Positions 11,710 to 22,486 of a DNA stretch of 64,000 nucleotides are shown here, in pieces. Each line of letters begins with the position of its first letter. Within the stretch, counting starts at the first letter, position 1. The position numbers and the translations under genes are program-made. This stretch comes from Pseudonocardia abyssalis (GTDB lineage: Bacteria > Actinomycetota > Actinomycetes > Mycobacteriales > Pseudonocardiaceae): the NCBI RefSeq assembly GCF_019263705.2, contig NZ_JADQDK010000001.1:5146001-5210000 (forward strand), in the 5' to 3' direction. The notes beneath the pieces are model-generated. The model was not told where the DNA came from, ran no database searches, and was given only the letters and a program-made list of their open reading frames with translations.

Positions 11710-12138
11710 CTACAGGGGGGCGGCGGGGCGGGGCTCGACCCGGCCGCCCGTCGACCTGGGGAGGGGGTCGTCCACCGGGGCCAGTACGCGGTGCGCCGCC
11801 GGGTTCGTGACCGGTTCGTCCCGCGCGTCGCGGTACTCCAGCTCGCCGTCGGCGCCCAGGTCGGCGTGGTAGCCGGCGGCGGCGAGCTGCTCCTCGTCGA
11901 GGTCGGTGAGCAGCTCCCAGCGGCTCGGGACCACGCGGTAGTCCGGCCAGGGGAGGTCGCCGTAGGCGTCGTGCAGGTCGGCGAGCAGGCCGACGAACAC
12001 CTGCTGCCAGCGCAGCGGCATCGACTGCGCGAGCGAGCGCGGCACGACGAGGTGGTCCTCGGTGGCGCCGCGGGCGGGTCGGTCGAGGTAGTCCGCCACC
12101 GGGGTCGTGGAGGCCGGGGCGGGGGGTTCGGGGGGCAT
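11710..12138 (-). CDS. Conserved-looking hypothetical protein, 142 aa
   Basis: Unrecognised. It starts at ATG 12138 with CAGGAGCG just upstream. A Pro/Ala/Thr-rich first 15 residues leads into a compact acidic, Trp-rich region ([35 protein letters not shown]) and a Pro/Arg tail. No signal peptide or membrane segment. The coding pattern (third-position GC and residue composition) supports a real gene. It sits behind the dnaK promoter on the same strand and is divergent from the LuxR-type regulator. Confidence 0.6.
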
Positions 12139-12227: not shown

Positions 12228-15002
12228 ATGACCGCAGGACTGCCGGGCCGCGACCGCGAGCTGGCCGCCCTGCGCGGCTGGCTCGACGGCGCGGTCGCGG
12301 GCCACGGGCGGTTGGTGCTGGTCCGGGGCGAGGCGGGCATCGGCAAGACCCGCCTCGCGCAGGAGCTCGCCCGGGACGGTGTGGCCGTCGCGTGGGGGCA
12401 CTGCGTCGACACCGAGGGTGCCCCGCCGTTCTGGCCGTGGCAGCAGGTGCTGCGCGCGCTCGGGGTGTCCGTGACCGCTCCCGCGGCCGGTCCGGACTCG
12501 CCGCAGGACCGCTTCCACGCCGTCGACGCGGTGGCCGCCGCGGTGCTGGCCGCCGCGCGGCCGCTGCTCGTGGTCGTCGACGACCTGCACTGGGCCGACG
12601 AATCGTCCGTGCTGGTGCTGCAGCGGCTCGCCGACCAGGCGCCGGGAGTGTCGTTGTTGCTGGTCGCCACGGTTCGCGACACCGGACCGGCCGCCCTCGC
12701 GGACCTGCAGCGCGCCCCGGACGCCGAGCTGGTCGAGCTGGGTGGCCTGGGCCCGGACGACGTCCGCCGGCAGCTGGACGCCCTCGGCGCCACCGGCGTC
12801 CCCGCCACCGACGTGCACGACGCCACCGGCGGCAACCCGTTCTTCGTGCGCGAGGTCGCCCGCTCGGTCCTGGACGGGACCTGGATGCCGGGCGCCGCGC
12901 CGCGGACCGTCCGCGACGCGGTCCGGGCCCGGGTCGACCGGCTGGCGCCCGAGGTCCGGCGGCTGCTGCAGGCGGGCGCCGTGCTCGGCAGGCGGTTCGC
13001 ACCCGCGGTCGTGGCCGACGTCCTCGGTGTCGCGGTGGCGGACGTCCCCGGGCCGGCCGACGCGGCCGTCGCCGCCGGGCTGCTCGCCCGTAGCGGGGCG
13101 GGCGAGCTGCGGTTCGCCCACGCACTGACCCGGGACGCCGTCCGCGCCTCGGTCCCGACCGGTGAGCTGCTGGCCCTGCACCGCGCGGCGGCCGACGCCC
13201 TGGAGGCGCACTGGGCGGGCGAGCTGGACGAGCACCTCGCCGAGCTGGCCTGGCACCGCCTCGCGCTGGCGCCCTACGGCGAGGGAGAGCGGGCCCGCCG
13301 ATGGGCGCTGCGCGCGGCCGCGGCGTCGGTGCGGCGGCTCGCCCCGGAGGAGGCGGTGCGGCTCTACCGGGCGGCGCTGGCCGTCCCCGACGCCTGGCCC
13401 GACGCCGACGGGCCGTGCCGCACCCGGCTCGACCTCGGGCGGGCCTGCGCCCTGGCCGGTGACCTGGACGGGGCGCTGGCCGCCGCCGTCGCCGCGGGGG
13501 ACCTCGCGCGGCAGGCCGGCCGGCCGGACCTGCTCGCCGAGGCCGCGCTCGTGGTGGAGCCGGTGCCGGACCCGGCGATCACCGCAGTGCTGGACCGGCT
13601 CGGCGGCGAGGCGCTGCGCGCCGTGGGCGAGCCCGGTGACCCGGCCCTGCGGGCCCGGCTGCTCGCCCGGCGCAGCCAGCTCGCCTTCTACGCGGGCGAC
13701 CACGAGTTGACGCGCGCGGCGGCGGCCGCGGCCGTCGAGCTGGCCCGCGGCACCGGCGACGACGGGGCGCTGGTCGCAGCCCTGCGCGCTCGGCACGACG
13801 CCTGCCCCGGGCCCGCCGGACGGCCGGAGCGCCTCGCGCTGGCCGCCGAGATGCTGGCGGTGACCGGTGACGCCCGGGCGGCGATGTGGGGCCGGCTGTG
13901 GCGGATCGACGCGCTCGTCGAGGACGGGGCGCTGACCGCGGCCGAGGACGAGCTGGGGGCGCTCGCCGCCGACGTGGAGCGCGTCGGCGGACCGGCTGGT
14001 CCCTGGCACCTGGACCGGGTCGCCGCGTGCGTGGCGCAGGCCCGTGGGCGCTTCGCCGAGGCGGCGGAGGCGGCGGCCCGCGGGTACGAGCGGATGCGGC
14101 GGATCGAACCGTCGTCGGCCACCGGGGTGTTCCTGGGCACGCACTGGGCCCTGGCCCGGCACGTGGGGAGCTCCGCAGACGGGCTCGCGTTCGCCCGGAC
14201 CTGGGTGGAGCCGCCGCCGCGGTTCCGGACGATGGGCCGGGTCTCGCGGGCCTACCTCCTGCTGCGCGCCGGCCACGCCGAGGAGGCCGCCGTCCAGTTC
14301 CGCCAGGCCGGGCCGCCCGAGGCGTGGTCGTGGCCGGTGTTCTTCGTCGCGCCCGGCTCGGTGCTGGCCGCGCTGGTGGCGATCGAGCTGGACCGGCGGG
14401 AGGAGCGGGACGCCGCGCTGGCCGCGCTGGAGGCGTTCCGCGGGGAGCACGTCGTCGGGAGCGGCGTGAGCTACTGCGGGCCGGCCGAGGTGACGCTCGG
14501 CATCGGGGCGCTCGCCCGGGGCCGGCTCGACGACGCCGTGGCCGATCTCGACGTCGCCGTCCGGGCGTGCGACCGGGCCGGCGTGCCCGCGTTCCTCGCC
14601 GAGTCGGGCCACCACCTGGCCCGGGCGCTGGTCGCGCGGGCCGGTCCCGGCGACCGGGACCGGGCCCGGCGCCTCGCCACCGAGAGCGACCGGCTGGTGC
14701 GGGCGCTCGGGATGGCGGCGTTCGCCGGTCCGAGCGCGGAGCTGCTGCGGCGGCTCGGCCCCGGCGACGGCGGGCTGTCCGCGCGGGAGGCCGAGGTCGC
14801 CGCGCTCGTGGCCGAGGGGCTGTCCAACCGCGGGATCGCCCAGCGGCTGGTGATCTCCGAGCGCACGGCGGGCAACCACGTCGCGCACATCCTCACCAAG
14901 CTGGGCTTCACCTCGCGCAGCCAGATCGCGGCCTGGGCCTCGCCGCGGATGAGCACCACGGTGAGTGATGCGGCTCATGTCGCGCCGCCGCTGCGCTCCT
15001 AG
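12228..15002 (+). CDS. LuxR-family transcriptional regulator with AAA/STAND ATPase domain (LAL type)
   Basis: 924 residues from ATG 12228. Layout: N-terminal AAA domain ([15 protein letters not shown], Walker [12 protein letters not shown] about 40, Walker [13 protein letters not shown] about 120), helical winged region, TPR-like repeats (about 330-840), and a C-terminal LuxR helix-turn-helix ([20 protein letters not shown] ... [18 protein letters not shown]) close to the end. Such large ATP-dependent regulators bind an unknown inducer through the repeat region and activate nearby genes. The small monooxygenase-like gene 52 bp downstream is a candidate target. The inducer cannot be told from sequence. 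Confidence 0.88.
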
Positions 15003-15339: not shown

Positions 15340-16353
15340 TCAGGCTCGGTTCGGGGCGGTTCCCGGGCGCGTGGCGAGGGGGACGAGCTCCTCGTAGTCC
15401 CACGGCACGGGCCGCACGCGGACGAACTCGCCGGTGTACGGGGCCTCGACCATCTGGTCGTCGCCGATGTACATGGCGACGTGGTGGATGGTCCGGGGGT
15501 CGTTGCGGTCGGTGGCGTAGAACAGCAGGTCACCGGGCTGCATCTCGCGGACGGGGAGATGCCCGCCCGCGTTGTACTGGTCGCGCGAGACCCGCGGCAG
15601 CGTGATCCCGGCCTCGCGGAACGCGGCGACGAGCAGCCCGGAGCAGTCCCAGCGGTCGGGCCCGTTGCCGCCCCACAGGTAGGGCGAGCCGACCTCGGCG
15701 AGGGCGAAGGAGATCGCGGTGCCGGCCACGCCGTCGGCGAGCACGGCGGTGGGCCGGCAGCCGATCGGGTCGGCCACGTCGGCGAGTCCCTGCACCAGCT
15801 CCGCGGCCAGGTTCTCCCACTTCGCGTAGGCGTTGGGGAACGCGGAGCGCTGCACGGTCTGCGCGGCGACGGTGACCGGCATCGTGTCCCAGCCCGGCAC
15901 CTCGAGCAGCCGCTCGATGAAGATCGTCGTGCTGTAGATCGGGTCGGTGACCTGGGCCGGGCTCCCCCACCCCTGCGACGGGCGCTGCTGGAACAGTCCG
16001 AGGGAGTCCCGGTCGCCGTAGTCGATGTTGCGCAGCGTCGACTCCTGCATCGCCGTGGCCAGCGCCACCAGCCAGGCCCGCGGCGGGGCGCCCATCCCCC
16101 GGGCGACGCCGATGATCGTGGCGGCGTTGGTGCGCTGCTCGTCGGACAGGGTGGCCGCCGTGGTGCCGCCCGCCCCGCCCGCGAGCGTCACGCCGCCGCG
16201 CAGCCCGGCGTCGCAGGATCCGGTCTGGGTCGTCGACCGGGCCCCGCCGCCGTTGACGGTGAACGCGATCAGGCTGACGACCAGCACCAGACCGAGTGCG
16301 GCGAACACCGCGACCGCCGGGACGAGCAGGCGCACCGGCCGCAGCAGGCGCAC
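15340..16353 (-). CDS. Membrane-anchored NlpC/P60 cell-wall hydrolase of the T4SS-like cluster (VirB1-like role)
   Basis: 337 residues. One N-terminal transmembrane anchor (LLVPAVAVFAALGLVLVV). A region about 75-190 contains MQESTLRNI and LGLFQQRPSQGWG, a lysozyme-like pattern seen in conjugation hydrolases. A C-terminal NlpC/P60 endopeptidase domain follows, with catalytic Cys in RWDCSGLL, His in HHVAMYIGD and GDLLFYA. It probably opens peptidoglycan locally for an envelope-spanning machine. GTG 16353 lies 1 bp after the preceding gene's stop; last gene of a six-gene coupled run. Confidence 0.85.
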   Translation of the reverse strand: MRLLRPVRLLVPAVAVFAALGLVLVVSLIAFTVNGGGARSTTQTGSCDAGLRGGVTLAGGAGGTTAATLSDEQRTNAATIIGVARGMGAPPRAWLVALATAMQESTLRNIDYGDRDSLGLFQQRPSQGWGSPAQVTDPIYSTTIFIERLLEVPGWDTMPVTVAAQTVQRSAFPNAYAKWENLAAELVQGLADVADPIGCRPTAVLADGVAGTAISFALAEVGSPYLWGGNGPDRWDCSGLLVAAFREAGITLPRVSRDQYNAGGHLPVREMQPGDLLFYATDRNDPRTIHHVAMYIGDDQMVEAPYTGEFVRVRPVPWDYEELVPLATRPGTAPNRA

Positions 16354-16354
16354 G

Positions 16355-16966
16355 TCAGGCCGCCCGGTCGTAGCCGGAGACCCGCCAGTCGCCCGCCTCG
16401 GTGCGCACCACGAGGACGAGCAGTGTCAGGGCGTCGGTGGGGACCTCCACGTCGACGGAGCTCGCGGCGACCCGCACCGCCCGCGCCGGCCCGGTGACGA
16501 CGGTGGCCGGCACCGCGCCCGGGTCGACGGTGGCGAGCACGCCGAGGTACTCCTCGGTGGTGAACGGGCGCAGGCCCTCGATCCACCGGTCCGCGGGGGT
16601 GCCGTCGGGTGGGCGGATCCACGCGGCCGACCAGCTCGCGGCGGCCTGCAGGGCGGCCGCGGGGGCGCTGGAGACGGGCAGCGAGGTGGGGGCGAGCTCG
16701 GAGACCGGGGGCAGCGCGGTCGGGACCGGGGTGCCCGGCGCGCGGGTCGACCGGGTGCTGCCGGGAGCGGTGGCGTTCGTGCCCGTCGTCGTGACGCCGG
16801 CGGGCGCCGGTTCGGGAGGGTTGATCGCGGTGAGCGCCGTGCTGATGCCCAGCACCACGGCGAGGGCCGCCACCCCGGAGACCGCGAGCCGGGCGGGGGA
16901 TCGCAGCGGCCACTGCCACAACGCCCGGTAGGCCGCAACGCGGCCGCGCGGGGACCTAATCGGCAC
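16355..16966 (-). CDS. Single-pass membrane protein with C-terminal globular domain, VirB8/TcpC-like position
   Basis: 203 residues from GTG 16966, overlapping the VirB6-like gene by 11 bp. A basic cytoplasmic tail (about 1-25) is followed by one transmembrane helix (RLAVSGVAALAVVLGISTAL), a Pro/Thr-rich linker, and a domain (about 105-203) with AASWSAAWIRPP, FTTEEYLGVLATVDPG and TEAGDWRVSGYDR. That is the topology and ending style of TcpC/VirB8 NTF2-like conjugation proteins. Assignment rests on topology and neighbours, not on clear sequence identity. Confidence 0.6.
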   Translation of the reverse strand: MPIRSPRGRVAAYRALWQWPLRSPARLAVSGVAALAVVLGISTALTAINPPEPAPAGVTTTGTNATAPGSTRSTRAPGTPVPTALPPVSELAPTSLPVSSAPAAALQAAASWSAAWIRPPDGTPADRWIEGLRPFTTEEYLGVLATVDPGAVPATVVTGPARAVRVAASSVDVEVPTDALTLLVLVVRTEAGDWRVSGYDRAA

Positions 16967-18872
16967 GGCCGCCGCCGGTCCGGTCGTAGACGGGGCCGGA
17001 GTAGCCGCGCGTCGGCGGGCGGTAGATGCGGTAGACGGGTACGCCGTCGACGATCTCGGCCTGCACCGGGCGGGCGGCCCCCGGGCGCATCGGCGAGGAG
17101 TCGGGCCTGCGGTAGATCGTGCGGTCGTCGACCTCTCCGGGCTCCGACCAGCGAGGTGACGCCCCCGAGCCCCCGACCCCGCCGCCACCCGACGGCAGCG
17201 CCGGGCGCCGCGCGCCGGGCACGAGCGTGGGCGTGGACGGGATCTCGATCTCGGTACGGGGCCGCCCGACTCGCTCGGCGGTGGCCCGCACGCGCATCGG
17301 CGCCTCGGCCTCGGGGCGGCTGCCGCCACCGACGGTGGCCCCGGCCGCGGCGCCGCGACGCTCGTCCCACCAGCGCGACTGGCGGTCGTCCTCCGGACCG
17401 CCGCGCATCCGCTGCCAGACCCGCGACATCGGCCCGGAACCGGCGCCCGGCACGATCCCGCCGAACTGCTCACGGGTGAGCGAGACCATCGACACCAGCC
17501 GCCGGAACGGCCGCGCGACGGCCCACAGCACCACCGTGACGACGCCGGTGACGAGCAGCGCGAGCCACAGGTCGATCCCCGAACCGGGCCGGAACAGCGA
17601 GACGACCAGCAGTGCGTGCAGCCCCGCGAGCGCGCCCACGACCAGCGTGTTGACGATCGCCGCCCCGCCGACGCGCAGCAACGCGGGCAGGATGTCGGGC
17701 TTGAGCACCGCGACGACGGCGATCGCGGGCGCGGTCATCACCATCAGGCGCAGGATCAGCATCGCGACGAGCACGAGCACCTTGGACAGCAGCTGGAACA
17801 GCGCGATGCAGATCGCCTGCACGACGGCGAGGATCCCGGCGCCGGTGCGGCTGCCCGCCTCGCCGGTGAAGTAGGGGTAGCGGTCGCCCATCTGCTCGCC
17901 GATCGCGGCGAAGTCGGCCTTCTTCTGCTCGGCGAGCTCCAGGGTGTCGCGGCCCTCGGCGATCTCGGCCTTGGTGAAGGTCTGCGCGCGCAGCAGGTCG
18001 CGGCCCAGCTCCTGGGCCTGCGGCACGTCGGGTGCGCCGAACTCGCCGCGCAGCCAGTTCTGGTAGATCACGTTGTCGACCAGCACGGTCGGCAGCGTGT
18101 CGCGGTTGCCCAGCCCGACCTGGTCGAGGAACCCCTCCTGCATCGACGTGACGCCGTCGAGCAGCAGACCGTCGGCGGCCTTGGCCCAGTCGATCGGGGT
18201 GAGGTACGCCGCCGACCCGATGACGAGCGCCGCCACCGCGAACGCCCCGCGCCGGGCCTGCTGCGCGAGGTCGCCGCGCAGGGCGAGCATCAGCAGGATC
18301 ACGGCGAGCACCGCGAGGACGGGCCCGATGAACGTGGAGAACACCGCGTCGTACATCGCGGTGGTGCCCGTCGTGATGAGGTCGTCGAGGGGGGAGAGCA
18401 GCTCCCCGCCGTCGGCGATCAGGTAGTGCGACCAGTTGACGCCGCCGACGGTGAACTTGGCGACGTTGAACGCCTGGTTGCCGAGCCACGTGTCGGTGGT
18501 GCTGGCCGGGTTGAACACCGCGGAGCCCGCACAGCCGAGGTCGTAGTTGTGCCAGAGCAGCCCGGCGTAGCCGACCTCGTCGTAGACGCTGCCCGGCTCG
18601 CCGACGCCGTAGACCGGGGGGTCGAGCGAGCCGACGAGCCCGGTGCCGGGCCGGTCGGGCTCGGGCGACTCCTTGCAGTCGAACGGCTGCGCCATCGCCG
18701 GCGTGCCGATCAGCACCGAACCACCGACGAGTGCGGTGACCACCAGCAGGGCCGCGCGACGCGACCGCGGCCGGTCGGGCCGCTCGCGTCTGCGCCGTCG
18801 ATGGGCCGCGACCAGCAGGGCGGCCAGGATCACCAACCCCACCGGCAGCACGCCTGCCGGTGCCCCCATCAC
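16956..18872 (-). CDS. Polytopic membrane protein, VirB6/TrbL-like
   Basis: 638 residues. GTG 18872 overlaps the VirB4 stop (GTGA). An N-terminal hydrophobic segment, then a signal-like segment (ALLVVTALVGGSVLIGTPAMA), an extracytoplasmic region with Cys pairs, and five to six hydrophobic helices (about 165-450, e.g. GPVLAVLAVILLMLALRG, LVLVAMLILRLMVMTAPAI, LWLALLVTGVVTVVLWAV). A long disordered cytoplasmic tail (about 470-638) with Arg/Gly/Pro and RxYRRP-like motifs follows. This layout is that of channel-forming VirB6/TrbL subunits in actinobacterial conjugation clusters. Secretion channel role inferred from layout. Confidence 0.7.
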   Translation of the reverse strand: MMGAPAGVLPVGLVILAALLVAAHRRRRRERPDRPRSRRAALLVVTALVGGSVLIGTPAMAQPFDCKESPEPDRPGTGLVGSLDPPVYGVGEPGSVYDEVGYAGLLWHNYDLGCAGSAVFNPASTTDTWLGNQAFNVAKFTVGGVNWSHYLIADGGELLSPLDDLITTGTTAMYDAVFSTFIGPVLAVLAVILLMLALRGDLAQQARRGAFAVAALVIGSAAYLTPIDWAKAADGLLLDGVTSMQEGFLDQVGLGNRDTLPTVLVDNVIYQNWLRGEFGAPDVPQAQELGRDLLRAQTFTKAEIAEGRDTLELAEQKKADFAAIGEQMGDRYPYFTGEAGSRTGAGILAVVQAICIALFQLLSKVLVLVAMLILRLMVMTAPAIAVVAVLKPDILPALLRVGGAAIVNTLVVGALAGLHALLVVSLFRPGSGIDLWLALLVTGVVTVVLWAVARPFRRLVSMVSLTREQFGGIVPGAGSGPMSRVWQRMRGGPEDDRQSRWWDERRGAAAGATVGGGSRPEAEAPMRVRATAERVGRPRTEIEIPSTPTLVPGARRPALPSGGGGVGGSGASPRWSEPGEVDDRTIYRRPDSSPMRPGAARPVQAEIVDGVPVYRIYRPPTRGYSGPVYDRTGGGRAD

Positions 18873-21832
18873 CTGACGGCCTCCCCGGCCGAGCGCGCCC
18901 GGTCGTGGCCGTTGCCGTTCGTGTGCGGCGCCCGGTCGTCCCCGGCGGGGCTGCCGTCGAGGTCGTCGACGAGGTCGAGCTCCTCGTCGTCGAGCAGTTC
19001 GGCGCCGGCGGGGAGGACGGGCGGCAGGTGCGGGGCGAAGTCGTCGAGGACGTCGTCGTCGGAGAGCACGTCACCGTCGGAGTACGCGTCGTCGTCGGCG
19101 AAACCGGGCCCCGCCACCAGCGTGACGGGCGGGGGCGGCTCGTCGGGAGCGCGCACCGCGGCGGGCGCGGTGGTCGGCGCGACGGGCACCCCGCGCGCGG
19201 AGACGCGGCTGGCGTCGGGGTTGGTGTCGAGCGCGGCGCGCACGTGCTCCAGGTGCGGGCCCTCGAGGTCGATGCGGATCTTCTCGACGCCGCCGTGACC
19301 GTCGGCGAAGACGAACTGCCGCGGCGTGTCGTCGGGACGGTCGTCGTGGCGCGGGCGCGGCGAGAGCGTGCCGAGCATCTGCTCGTAGCCGACGCCGGTG
19401 GGCACCTTGAGCAGGCGCAGTGCCTCGTCCTGGGCCTCGCCGTCGTCGGTGCGGCCCACGAACACGGCGTTGACCAGCGACGCGAAGCCCGACACCCGCA
19501 GCAGGTCGCCGGCGAGCTGCGAGGCGAACAGCGCGCGCACGTTGAACTTGCGGGAGTCGCGGGCGAGGCGGTCGATGAGGACCTTGCCGGTGGGCACCTG
19601 CGAGAGGAAGTGCGTCTCGTCGAGCGCCACGCCCTTGCGCAGGTTGCGGTCGGCCTCGTAGATGGTGCGTTGGGTGAGCCAGGACGCGAGGTTGAGCAGC
19701 TCGACGGCCAGCGACTCCCCGTCGGTCCACTCCTCGCGCGGGCTGCCCGGGCGGGGCAGCGTCATGCCCTGCATCGTCAGCACCGTGAGCCGGTAGTCGC
19801 GGTCGGCGTGCCACGGGTCGTCGCGGGTGGTGTCGGGGAACAGCAGTGCGGCCTGCGGCAGCTCGCGGCGCTCCTCCAGGAAGTCGGCGACGACCCCGGC
19901 GTGCTCCTCGCCGTCGCGGGCGTGGCGGCGCAGGGCGTCGATGACGAGCCCGGGGTGGCGGTCGTTCGCGCCACCCACCTCGCGCACGGCGCGCAGCAAC
20001 ACGATCCGGGTGTGCGGCATCCGCGAGATGTCGTAGGGCAGCAGGCCGGTGAGGACGTCGAGCACGAGACGCCTGCGGGTGGCCGCGGCCAGTGATCGCT
20101 CGCGGCGCCACGCCCGCTCGGGGTCCTCCTCGTCGACGAAGTGGTCCTGGCGCGGCTCGGCGACGACGCGGTACGGGTTGAGGATGCCCGGGTCGGCGCG
20201 TAGCAGGTTGATGTGCCGCGAGAACGGCGCCAGCTCCGGCAGCTTCGTCAGCTCGGCGAGGGGTCCGGACGGGTCGAGCACCGTCCACGTGGCCCCGGAC
20301 CGCAGTGTCTTGTAGACGATCAGCCCGGTCAGGAACGACTTGCCCGATCCCAGCCCGCCGACGACGGCGGTGAGCCCGGACGCCCGGCGCACCTCCTGCG
20401 CGAGCCACGGGTCCCAGGCCACGGGCCGTCGGGTGGCGGTGCAGGTCTCGCCGATCATGATGCCGCGGCGGTCGCCGACGGACGCCGTGGCCGCGGGGAC
20501 GGCCGCGGCCGCCCAGGTGACCGAGCCGCGCCGCCGGTACGCGGTGGACGCCAGCGGCTCACCGGGGATGAACTCGCGCGCGTACTTGTACTGCGCCTCC
20601 GGGTGCTCCATCTGCACCTTGGGCCGGTACACGTCGAGCACCTGCTGCGCGCGGCTGACGGCCTCGGCCTCGTCCTTGCCGGACACCGCGACCCGCCACC
20701 AGCCGTAGAGGCGGGTGTTGAGCTGGGTCAGCCCGGTGGTCAGCTCGTCCTCGACCTCCAGCACCCGGTCGGCCTGGCGGGCCAGCGACATCGGGGGGTC
20801 GAGGTCGTGGTCGTGGGTGTAGTGCCGGATCTGGCTGCGGACCTTGCCCATCTGCCGCTGCAGCTCGCCCGCGACCTCCTCCGGGCGCCGGACGTAGATC
20901 CGTGCCGACCACTCCACCGGGAACGGGAGGCGGTCGCTGTGCTGCATCCACGGGTCGTCGATCTCGGGGATGCGCAGCCCTTCCATCAGCCCGACGGAGA
21001 GCACGGCGACGTTGCGCTGCACCGTCTGCGACCGGATCCGCCCGATCACCTTGACGGTCGGCGCGTACGGCTCCTGGTACATGTCGACGCCGTCGGTGAA
21101 GCCCGCGAGGTCCTCGGTCTCCCACCGCGACACCCCGCCGGGCACGACCGACAGCGTCCGCGGCGCGGGCAGGCCGAGGGCGCAGGAGCGCTGCATGAGC
21201 CAGGCGACGTCGTCGGGGCGGGCGGGGACGGCGTCGAGGCCGCTGCCGGCGACCAGCTCGTCGATGTGGGCGACCTCGGAGTCGAGCGCGGCCAGCTCGG
21301 CCCGCACCGCGGCCGGTGCGATCCGCTCCAGCACGGGGGCGGCGGCGTCGACCCAGCGGTCGAGCATCCCGCGACCGGAGACCTCGATGCCGAGGAACAC
21401 CTCCTTGTCGCTCATGCTCAGGCCCATGAGGTGGCGCTGCTCGCCCTCCAGGAACCCGTCCCAGCCGAGCGCGCCCGCGACGTCGGGCATGCGGCCCAGC
21501 GCGTTGTTGTCGAACGACTCCGCCCACATGTGCACCGGGTAGGGCCGCGTCGTGACGCGCAGATGCAGCCAGCGGCCCTGCAGCTCGCCGAGCTGCGCGG
21601 CGATCTGACGGATCAGCACCTCGCGCTGCGAGTCGCTGCGGAAGCTCCAGGCCTGCGCGGCGAGCCGGTACCAGGCCATGACCTGGGTGCCGGTGCGCGT
21701 CAGGTGGCCGTCGATCGAGCGCAGTGCGATCTCGGGGGTGTAGTTCGGCAGCCCGGACTCCCCGGCCAGCGATCGCCCGCGCCGGCGGCGCGGCTTCCCC
21801 TCGGCGGCGCCGTTCTCGTCACGTCGTGCCAC
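18869..21832 (-). CDS. VirB4-family secretion ATPase
   Basis: 987 residues from GTG 21832; an upstream extension to 21904 is within the preceding gene. The N-terminal half is the VirB4/TraC-type domain. The C-terminal RecA-like domain has Walker A GGLGSGKSF (about 492-499), Walker B GVALDETHFLS (about 735-743) and LFASQLAGDLL sensor region. The tail is acidic and disordered (DDDAYSDGDVLSDDDVLDD). VirB4 powers pilus biogenesis and substrate transfer at the inner side of type IV secretion systems. It is the key marker that makes this six-gene cluster T4SS-like. No VirD4 or relaxase gene is next to it. Confidence 0.85.
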   Translation of the reverse strand: MARRDENGAAEGKPRRRRGRSLAGESGLPNYTPEIALRSIDGHLTRTGTQVMAWYRLAAQAWSFRSDSQREVLIRQIAAQLGELQGRWLHLRVTTRPYPVHMWAESFDNNALGRMPDVAGALGWDGFLEGEQRHLMGLSMSDKEVFLGIEVSGRGMLDRWVDAAAPVLERIAPAAVRAELAALDSEVAHIDELVAGSGLDAVPARPDDVAWLMQRSCALGLPAPRTLSVVPGGVSRWETEDLAGFTDGVDMYQEPYAPTVKVIGRIRSQTVQRNVAVLSVGLMEGLRIPEIDDPWMQHSDRLPFPVEWSARIYVRRPEEVAGELQRQMGKVRSQIRHYTHDHDLDPPMSLARQADRVLEVEDELTTGLTQLNTRLYGWWRVAVSGKDEAEAVSRAQQVLDVYRPKVQMEHPEAQYKYAREFIPGEPLASTAYRRRGSVTWAAAAVPAATASVGDRRGIMIGETCTATRRPVAWDPWLAQEVRRASGLTAVVGGLGSGKSFLTGLIVYKTLRSGATWTVLDPSGPLAELTKLPELAPFSRHINLLRADPGILNPYRVVAEPRQDHFVDEEDPERAWRRERSLAAATRRRLVLDVLTGLLPYDISRMPHTRIVLLRAVREVGGANDRHPGLVIDALRRHARDGEEHAGVVADFLEERRELPQAALLFPDTTRDDPWHADRDYRLTVLTMQGMTLPRPGSPREEWTDGESLAVELLNLASWLTQRTIYEADRNLRKGVALDETHFLSQVPTGKVLIDRLARDSRKFNVRALFASQLAGDLLRVSGFASLVNAVFVGRTDDGEAQDEALRLLKVPTGVGYEQMLGTLSPRPRHDDRPDDTPRQFVFADGHGGVEKIRIDLEGPHLEHVRAALDTNPDASRVSARGVPVAPTTAPAAVRAPDEPPPPVTLVAGPGFADDDAYSDGDVLSDDDVLDDFAPHLPPVLPAGAELLDDEELDLVDDLDGSPAGDDRAPHTNGNGHDRARSAGEAVR

Positions 21833-22229
21833 GCCGGCGCCCCCCCCTGCGGCGGGCCGGTGCGACGGGCGGGCCGGTGCGGACGTGCCCGGAGCGCACG
21901 GCACCCCCGGCCGTCGCGGTGCTGGCCCGGGGCCCGCGCACCTCGTGGCCGAAGAGTGCGACGACCTGGCCGAGCGGGCGCTCGTAGTCGATGCGCTGCC
22001 CGAGGAAGCGCGTGGCGACCACCGTGATCACCAGGGACCAGGCGACGGAGAAGAAGTCGAGCCCGATGCCCAGGCGCCGCTGGACGAACATCACCAGGAT
22101 CATCACGAGCAGGCCGACGCCGTAGGAGACGTAGCGGGCGCGCCAGGGGAAGGTGGCGCGCGGCGGGCCGAGCCAGACCGAGTCGACCCGGTACACCTCG
22201 TCGTCGGTGCGGACGAGCACGCCCGTCAC
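21819..22229 (-). CDS. Small membrane protein in PrgI/VirB3 position
   Basis: 136 residues from GTG 22229, overlapping the pilin-like gene by 4 bp and the VirB4 gene by 14 bp. Two adjacent hydrophobic helices (YVSYGVGLLVMILVMFV and FFSVAWSLVITVVATRFL) are followed by a basic tail (ARRRGGRRRG). Size, two-helix hairpin and location immediately before VirB4 are those of PrgI/VirB3 subunits; sequence identity is too low to be sure. Confidence 0.65.
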   Translation of the reverse strand: MTGVLVRTDDEVYRVDSVWLGPPRATFPWRARYVSYGVGLLVMILVMFVQRRLGIGLDFFSVAWSLVITVVATRFLGQRIDYERPLGQVVALFGHEVRGPRASTATAGGAVRSGHVRTGPPVAPARRRGGRRRGTT

Positions 22230-22486
22230 CCGGTGAGGAGGCTGGCCAGGAAACTGCCGATCTGCGGACCGTTCCCCGACACGGCGATGCCGAGCGCCAC
22301 CAGTCCGATGATCAGACCGACGCTCCGCCGGGCGACGCCCGCGTTGTCGCCGCGGCCACCGATCCACAGCAGGATGACGGCGATGCCGAGGAGTACCAGG
22401 GGAACGACGTTCTCCTGGATCCAGGTCTGCAGTCCACCGGTGCCCACTCCGCCCTGCGCGAGCGCGAACAGTTCTGGATCGATCAC
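22226..22486 (-). CDS. Small two-helix membrane protein, TrbC/VirB2 pilin-like
   Basis: 86 residues from GTG 22486, preceded by GGGAGGAG. Helices WIQENVVPLVLLGIAVILLW and SVGLIIGLVALGIAVSGNG are separated by a short basic loop (GGRGDNAGVARR), the pattern of VirB2/TrbC-like pilins and of small actinobacterial conjugation membrane proteins. First gene of the coupled cluster. The alternative start at 22642 would add a cysteine-containing basic leader without hydrophobic character and is not preferred. Confidence 0.65.
   Translation of the reverse strand: MIDPELFALAQGGVGTGGLQTWIQENVVPLVLLGIAVILLWIGGRGDNAGVARRSVGLIIGLVALGIAVSGNGPQIGSFLASLLTG

Follow-up and report, generated by a model that had tools for sequence, protein, structure and literature searches.

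The locus studied here raises the question of why a gene set resembling a type IV secretion system (T4SS) should lie among housekeeping genes in an actinomycete chromosome, with no module for DNA transfer beside it. It is an operon of six close-packed minus-strand open reading frames (ORFs), named A to F, in a 64-kb stretch of the Pseudonocardia abyssalis genome (the window; positions are coordinates of this stretch, which is part of a two-contig, 6.3-Mb genome). What is known of T4SSs comes mainly from mobile DNA and from pathogens, where they are accessory traits. The core of this set looks ordinary; its situation is extraordinary, since it is family-wide and mostly single-copy, no mobile module was seen and VirD4 is missing from most of the genomes tested. 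With a probability of roughly 0.6, we consider the operon to be a translocation core of the MPF-FA type, like those of pCW3, Tn916 and ICEBs1, that has long been out of mobile DNA and is now a vertically inherited chromosomal system throughout the family, most likely with a role in the envelope or the hyphae. The estimates attached to this and to the other readings overlap and do not sum to one.

Gene C encodes a VirB4-type ATPase. It matched Pfam AAA_10 (E value, 8.7e-24) and NCBIfam TcpF (2.8e-27; 95 bits, with a model cut-off of 1100), and the profile of the family's VirB4 proteins matched the VirB4 structure 4ag5 in the PDB (E value, 1.4e-9). The Walker A Lys498 and the Walker B Asp738-Glu739 were identical in all 120 aligned VirB4 rows, the window row included; a stricter text pattern around Walker B fits a minority of these rows. 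The VirB4 ATPase with intact Walker motifs that the initial annotation had described was thus borne out. The predicted structure of the gene E product fits the VirB8/TcpC fold, with an NTF2-like domain and one membrane helix (VIA-align comparison), and it is on this predicted fold that the VirB8 assignment is based. The profile of E also matched (probability, 96%) a VirB8-like protein from f31, a family with 40 VirB4 matches at about 30% identity; that protein itself matched Pfam TcpC with an E value of 0.0033, below the cut-off. Gene F is a wall hydrolase, matching Pfam NLPC_P60 (3.7e-25) and, in the PDB, 8b2h (4.4e-11; residues 43 to 188), the muramidase 8b2e (7.6e-9; residues 73 to 184) and the NlpC parts of 4hpe and 4fdy. 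The proposal of an NlpC/P60 enzyme therefore stands, with the correction that F has two wall-cleaving domains rather than one. Residues E104, C237 and H291, the putative active site by motif, were kept in 21 of 21 family rows, that of the window among them.

For the remaining genes the assignments are more qualified. The profile of gene B aligned collinearly to the TcpE-domain proteins of the f31 operon (P of 9e-5 and probability of 59%, with P of 0.37 and 0.5 for two controls), and one of these proteins matched Pfam TcpE with an E value of 6.4e-22; neither B itself nor any of 27 scanned relatives matched that model. This is moderate evidence that B is a two-helix TcpE/VirB3-like protein, so that the VirB3 half of its earlier PrgI/VirB3-position label is retained and the PrgI half is dropped, B being closer to TcpE/VirB3 by profile. 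Gene D has nine hydrophobic segments and gave neither a meaningful Pfam match nor a PDB match; several of its close relatives carry the UniRef name TrbL/VirB6 plasmid conjugal transfer protein, and its topology and these names suggest a VirB6/TrbL-like protein. Gene A has hydropathy helices at residues 26 to 44 and 51 to 69, its family profile matched the corresponding Micromonosporaceae profile (probability, 97%), and its position and topology point to a VirB2 role. Taken together, the predicted structure of E and the profile comparisons fit T4SS components.

The operon spans positions 15340 to 22486 (ORF listing; Table 1), and the ORF coordinates agree with the initial description of six chained genes with overlaps of up to 14 bp or a 1-bp gap: B and C overlap by 14 bp, C and D by 4 bp and D and E by 11 bp, with 1 bp between E and F. 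Genes A and B are separated by 5 bp or overlap by 4 bp, depending on the start chosen for B, which would be 136 aa long from the in-frame GTG at 22229.

Table 1. Features of the operon and its immediate surroundings, in window coordinates.
Feature	Position	Strand	Length (aa)	Description
Gene A	22226-22486	-	86	VirB2-position (putatively pilin-like) small protein, two hydrophobic helices
Gene B	21819-22220	-	133	Probably TcpE/VirB3-like, two helices
Gene C	18869-21832	-	987	VirB4/TcpF-type ATPase, Walker A K498, Walker B D738-E739
Gene D	16956-18872	-	638	Polytopic, putatively VirB6/TrbL-like, long C-terminal tail
Gene E	16355-16966	-	203	Predicted VirB8/TcpC fold: single membrane helix, linker, NTF2-like domain
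Gene F	15340-16353	-	337	Wall hydrolase: membrane anchor, muramidase-like domain (E104), NlpC/P60 (C237, H291)
w117	11710-12138	-	142	Family-specific; usual place close downstream of F
AAA/LuxR-type regulator	12228-15002	+		Between F and w117; not a machine part; Pfam AAA_16 and GerE

This gene content, with a VirB4/TcpF ATPase, putatively TcpE/VirB3-like and VirB6-like proteins, a protein of the predicted VirB8/TcpC fold and a muramidase plus NlpC/P60 enzyme in one operon, resembles the MPF-FA T4SSs of Gram-positive bacteria, partly by what we take to be the gene content of pCW3 (Tcp), Tn916 and ICEBs1. Unlike those systems, the window operon is chromosomally fixed family-wide, and no coupling protein, relaxase or integrase was found with it. 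Eleven query proteins (two TrwC relaxases from the same genome, four VirD4-like proteins, an EccC-like ATPase, an SCO6880 protein, a putative integrase and two plasmid FtsK-like proteins) gave no match at an E value of 1e-3 in the 64-kb window, in agreement with the earlier statement that neither a relaxase nor VirD4 lies next to the operon. No relaxase was found by the two TrwC queries in the window or by Pfam on 16 neighbouring proteins, other relaxase families not having been model-searched window-wide, and no integrase was found in the window with the single putative integrase used as a query. Of at least 60 repeat families, the 20 largest consisted of imperfect GC-rich repeats, with no convincing flanking att pair. 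The sole tRNA gene of the window is 9.4 kb away from the operon, on its upstream side. With the queries used, the reading of a stand-alone T4SS-like machine is supported.

VirB4 was found in all 150 sampled genomes of the window's family, in 46 of 46 genera; this family (f1) is taken as Pseudonocardiaceae because close relatives of the window's proteins bear the name Pseudonocardia. There was one match in 140 of these genomes and two or three in 10, of which four have a single gene split by an intein. Beyond the family, 121 of 298 genomes drawn from the order and 50 of 394 drawn from the class were positive. The matches fell mostly in f1 and f15 and sporadically in f4, f5, f7, f8, f9, f11, f13, f22, f32, f33, f34 and f48; among the non-matching genomes listed (20 per draw), those of the class draw were all f8 and those of the order draw were spread over nine families other than f1 and f15. 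We take f15 to be Micromonosporaceae/Glycomycetaceae from the neighbours that its loci have in common with named loci of genera that we presume to belong there.

The order A-B-C-D-E-F, on one strand, was kept in all 20 loci taken from other genomes of the family (20 of the 150 genomes searched for VirB4) and in all 65 Micromonosporaceae/Glycomycetaceae loci that are named and at least 18 kb long, a recurrence which argues that the six-ORF set is not due to chance. The latter set comprised 80 named loci, 15 of which were dropped as shorter than 18 kb; these were the best 80 of 390 relatives, ranked against a query with an f13 protein as its first row, which favours Micromonosporaceae. The gene maps leave out L061, L062, L063 and L074, and L090 is without a called VirB4. 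The synteny comparison proposed in the initial annotation was thereby carried out, and together with the presence of VirB4 throughout the family it supports the term "domesticated" used there.

Within the window, the operon adjoins a dnaK-grpE-dnaJ-merR-type cluster, a gene for an etfD-like (Fe-S/cysteine-rich) protein and the AAA/LuxR-type regulator, the last two being the neighbours named at the outset. An etfD-like neighbour was present in 3 of the 20 other family loci; outside the nearest relatives of the window, different housekeeping genes adjoin the operon. On one side the family loci have genes for an RNase H/phosphatase fusion, a Zn-ribbon coiled-coil protein and a NIF3 protein and on the other side genes for RNase II and an F420-type oxidoreductase, each in 10 to 13 of 20 loci, with the domains read in one locus. 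The Micromonosporaceae-type loci are flanked by folP, folB, folK and a DUF3180 gene, each in 60 to 62 of 84 loci, with some truncated loci among the 84. Over 21 loci the mean amino acid distance of VirB4 was 0.24, equal to that of the slowest of six flanking genes (0.24 to 0.40; 10 to 13 loci each), and VirB4 distances correlated with those of five of the six (rho of 0.42 to 0.75; at most 5 of 500 permutations as high); there was no correlation with the sixth (rho of 0.19; 101 of 500 permutations). The dN/dS ratio between the window and the closest genome was 0.10 to 0.15 for genes A to D, showing purifying selection on these genes between the two; the closest locus covers D in part and neither E nor F, and B was unpaired in two loci and A in one. 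The presence of VirB4 in 150 of 150 genomes, the conserved order, the housekeeping flanks, the VirB4 distances that track those flanks and the low dN/dS of A to D lead us to regard the operon as a long-term chromosomal fixture.

These observations bear directly on the reading of the operon as a conjugative or integrative element or the decaying remnant of one, since relatives of the set do occur on plasmids. VirB4 matched 308 plasmid records, the best at about 43% identity in Nonomuraea and Streptomyces and at about 35% in Rhodococcus (phage records gave three matches, over half its length), and in each of four inspected plasmids five of the six genes matched by sequence, with a gene of similar size in the sixth position. 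In two of the four, a gene for an FtsK/SpoIIIE-domain protein lies no more than about 2 kb from the set; the third encodes a Pfam-silent protein weakly similar to this FtsK/SpoIIIE-domain protein (E value, 3e-6), and the picked candidate of the fourth has a weak DUF87 match. The actinobacterial plasmid sets (Streptomyces plasmids of 22 to 47 kb, Rhodococcus and Pseudonocardia p1) have a like gene order, and their VirB4 proteins are about 35 to 43% identical to that of the window in the rows listed. They differ in being extrachromosomal and, in the two cases mentioned, in the nearby FtsK/SpoIIIE protein, whereas the chromosomal rows of the family form a clade of their own. A mobile element is also at odds with the family-wide presence, order and flanks just described, with the G+C content of the operon (0.741; window, 0.737), with the kept catalytic residues and with the lack of a relaxase or VirD4 match in the window; it is strongly disfavoured and appears very improbable. 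G+C at third codon positions was 0.956 to 0.970 in B to F, 0.976 in dnaK and 0.839 in the short gene A.

In a tree of 36 VirB4 rows, the nine family rows formed one clade (support, 100/99) and eleven Micromonosporaceae-type rows another (100/100), with f13 as its sister; f31 formed a third clade, and the plasmids fell in two places on the family side, a placing that is tentative because several branches are very long. The tree is compatible with two or three independent domestications, or with a single old one followed by escapes. The f31 loci L075 to L077 carry a chromosomal operon with TcpE and TcpC beside the distant VirB4, a third, separate lineage; in L076, where it was tested, TcpE sits in a protein of more than 1,000 aa with a weak ParA-type match near its end, and the operon lies near sdhA/sdhB-looking genes. 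The T4SS set is also present on two Streptomyces plasmids recorded as linear, L085 (35 kb) and L087 (24 kb). Both are typed non-mobilizable, and the annotation covered here, 25 of 35 kb for the first and the full 24 kb for the second, lists no relaxase.

A second question is whether a coupling ATPase serves the operon from elsewhere. Seven PF12696 (VirD4-type) places were found in the same genome: three in loci of the SCO6880 type, two in elements with TrwC relaxases, one on the 32.8-kb contig and one as a weak match in a long gene. There is also one EccC/FtsK-like ATPase (G000:C1:3547621-3550050). Across the family, VirD4/TraG was missing at an E value of 1e-10 from 15 of 25 genomes (single query, the VirD4 of one SCO6880-type locus). 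All 25 have VirB4, and the whole A-F order was seen for 13 of the 15 without VirD4.

A DNA exporter that borrows its coupling ATPase, either this EccC/FtsK-like protein or the VirD4 proteins of other loci, must be weighed against these data. Of 84 Micromonosporaceae-type loci, 51 have an EccC-type FtsK/SpoIIIE gene of the same broad family (e.g., L066:674-3199) close to the operon, its full-length homologue in the window's genome scores above 700 bits in 23 of the 25 family genomes, and two of the four plasmid cousins have an FtsK-domain ATPase nearby. The homologue in the window's genome is unlinked to the operon and flanked by small genes. Its best NCBIfam models, however, are the type VII proteins EccC/EssC, below cut-off, and not T4SS coupling proteins, and two family genomes (G036 and G042) keep the operon with weak matches alone to this ATPase. 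A cousin-plasmid FtsK-like protein found two weak places in the window's genome, judged by eye to be FtsK and a protein of the type found in actinomycete integrative and conjugative elements. Borrowing thus seems unlikely, given also the 15 genomes without VirD4/TraG. As an obligate coupling protein, the FtsK-like gene near the Micromonosporaceae operon was rejected, its homologue here being EccC-like and giving no full-strength match in 2 of 25 family genomes. The lack of VirD4 in the window and in most tested family genomes and the weak ATPase matches in G036 and G042 suggest that the machine works with no canonical coupling protein.

If so, VirB4 would be the only motor of the set, and the substrate would not enter through a VirD4 docking ATPase. 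It can be envisioned that VirB4 docks with the TcpE/VirB3-like B and the VirB6-like D to give a membrane motor and channel, that the VirB8-like E assembles into a ring at the level of the wall, that A provides a short VirB2-like stalk or lining, and that F cuts peptidoglycan and so opens the wall. Such a machine could push onward proteins already exported by Sec or Tat, or it could extend and retract A; its role would most likely be in envelope or hyphal development, with the cmd operon of Streptomyces as a functional analogue.

T4SSs that lack VirD4 have been reviewed, namely ComB of Helicobacter, Ptl of Bordetella and VirB of Brucella (PMC12857230); they are alike in working without VirD4 and differ from the present system in their Gram-negative envelope parts and in their already established functions. 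Two further readings take them as models. The first is a dedicated protein exporter that acts in two steps like Ptl, releasing or injecting specific effectors, either toxins against neighbours or wall proteins. That VirD4-less T4SSs exporting proteins exist (PMC12857230) and that F could open the wall speak for it; no toxin, immunity protein or effector was named among the scanned flanking proteins, and the linked gene w117 has no Pfam or NCBIfam match and no obvious export signal by eye. We give this reading, which overlaps the preferred one in that both allow pre-exported proteins as cargo, a minor but appreciable chance. The second is a DNA-uptake machine analogous to ComB, in which a VirB2-like pseudopilus would be retracted by VirB4 and ComEC would finish the import. 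The part list is similar to that of ComB, which has VirB4 but neither VirD4 nor VirB11 (PMC12857230). A ComEC-family protein was present in 50 of 50 tested genomes; because it was equally present in those without the operon's VirB4, this co-occurrence is uninformative as evidence of competence and carries no weight. We regard DNA uptake as unlikely but, like DNA export and protein export, as a serious rival.

For the preferred reading, a conjugation-derived core now serving the envelope or hyphae, the closest functional precedent is the cmd operon of Streptomyces (cmdABCDEF, SCO4126-4131). This is a chromosomal six-gene operon with a VirB4-like ATPase. Normal sporulation and chromosome segregation are reported to depend on it, and deleting it did not significantly alter the transfer of an SLP2-derived plasmid (data not shown in that paper; PMC2782261). 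A transposon study has Cmd proteins taking part in aerial hypha formation (PMC6585502). The window operon shares with cmd the chromosomal six-gene layout and the VirB4-like ATPase, no plasmid-transfer role having been seen for cmd (PMC2782261). The two differ in protein family: SCO6880 is stated to resemble cmdC (PMC2782261), from which we take cmd to be of the SCO6880 type. On that footing, identity with cmd was rejected by profiles: the window VirB4 profile had in common with the ATPase of the SCO6880-type family an 88-column P-loop stretch alone (probability, 36%), and the probability against the SCO6880 profile was 0.2%. NCBIfam gave no match to an SCO6880-family protein within the window operon. 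By these comparisons the window operon is not a member of the cmd type, and perhaps it works like cmd by analogy. Three related SCO6880-type loci occur in the window's own genome (L078 to L080; G000:C1 near 2.50, 2.65 and 0.71 Mb), with a VirB4-like ATPase, VirD4 and downstream genes that we take to be Tad-like. NCBIfam was applied to one of the three loci, the other two being 71 and 79% identical to it in the SCO6880-type protein. By the literature, these loci belong to the family of the cmd sporulation operon.

Several points weigh against the preferred reading. The distances of D (VirB6) track the flanking genes less well than those of VirB4, clearly for three (0, 1 and 1 of 500 permutations) and weakly or not at all for the other three (21, 75 and 163 of 500). 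Toward two more distant genomes, dN/dS was 0.29 to 0.64, perhaps owing to saturation. The match of E to a true TcpC profile (from f31) was weak (probability, 9%), as was its PDB profile match to TcpC (E value, 1), and the roles proposed for D and A are drawn from topology, position and the names of relatives. A divergent coupling ATPase could escape single-query searches, the EccC/FtsK-like ATPase is present in 23 of 25 genomes, and the plasmid cousins on the family side of the VirB4 tree mean that the cargo could still be DNA. Since cmd belongs to a different protein family, homology gives no ground for carrying its phenotype over to the window operon, and no such phenotype was seen in mutants of SCO6878 and SCO6881, the closer paralogues of cmd (PMC2782261). 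Mechanism, cargo and cellular role are argued from sequence and analogy.

Pseudonocardiaceae and Micromonosporaceae grow as mycelia. A wider suggestion, which we hold tentatively and at somewhat less than even odds, is that mycelial actinobacteria have turned an envelope machine derived from conjugation into core cell machinery, domesticated perhaps at least twice (in Pseudonocardiaceae, in Micromonosporaceae and possibly in f31), with VirB4 as sole motor and no DNA-coupling ATPase, and serving hyphal development or DNA uptake instead of gene transfer; cmd would then be a parallel domestication of a different T4SS family. A translocation core with VirB4 in every sampled genome of a family, and no VirD4/TraG match in most of those tested, would imply that a T4SS can belong to the core housekeeping machinery of Gram-positive bacteria, and the operon would offer a testable system for what a VirB4-only T4SS can move, as well as a possible counterpart of the developmental cmd operon.

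The open-licence literature, to which our search was confined (subscription papers lay outside it), gave no description of such a system in Pseudonocardiaceae. A 2011 survey reports few T4SSs in actinobacteria (PMC3158045), and a survey of actinobacterial integrative and conjugative elements also exists (PMC3218068). A virB4-like gene resembling a Streptomyces ATP-binding protein is conserved in three Frankia strains (PMC2266912), and another occurs in the Micromonospora lupini genome (PMC4182475). These may be relatives, the Frankia gene perhaps of the cmd type; they are noted as conserved or isolated genes, and the portions seen describe no system, family-wide fixation or missing VirD4 (PMC2266912, PMC4182475).

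Gene w117 was found downstream of F in 18 of 20 family loci (tblastn). It had 29 matches among 200 genomes of the order; every one belonged to the window's family and, judged by coordinates, lay no more than about 7 kb from VirB4. It is a family-specific companion of the A-F set, split from F in the window by the LuxR-type regulator and a 94-aa gene. The regulator was not seen at that place in the other mapped family loci; PADLOC gave it a weak CARF-model match at residues 850 to 892, its helix-turn-helix region. An anti-phage defence role was considered and dropped, PADLOC having no match for A to F or w117. Upstream of the operon, sites for developmental regulators (WhiA, GACAC; BldD, GTNAC; WhiG; MtrA) gave nothing usable, relatedness inflating the counts: GACAC occurred in 13 of 21 family loci (13.0 in shuffles) and 60 of 76 Micromonosporaceae loci (42.5), GTNAC in 20 of 21 (14.9) and 72 of 76 (55.0), and the MtrA pattern in 1 of 21 (1.4) and 9 of 76 (2.0). 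A three-locus upstream alignment was uninformative. Some upstream words recur, e.g., CGAGTAGA in 9 of 21 family loci.

Further observations concern variants of individual genes. In the Micromonosporaceae-type F proteins (L064 to L067 and L091 to L168), the muramidase Glu is kept in 67 of 69, with two gaps; the aligned NlpC/P60 places are without Cys or His, and the C-terminal part differs. In VirB4, an insert of about 360 to 400 residues with intein-like ends follows directly after the Walker A Lys in at least 4 of the 150 family genomes, with the frames open (L174 to L177, from genomes G069, G037, G112 and G066). A few family genomes have a second, more divergent VirB4, 49 to 61% identical to that of the window (L147-type copies, e.g., G328:C14:51-2603 and G147:C15:56522-59104), and these second copies perhaps lie on mobile DNA.

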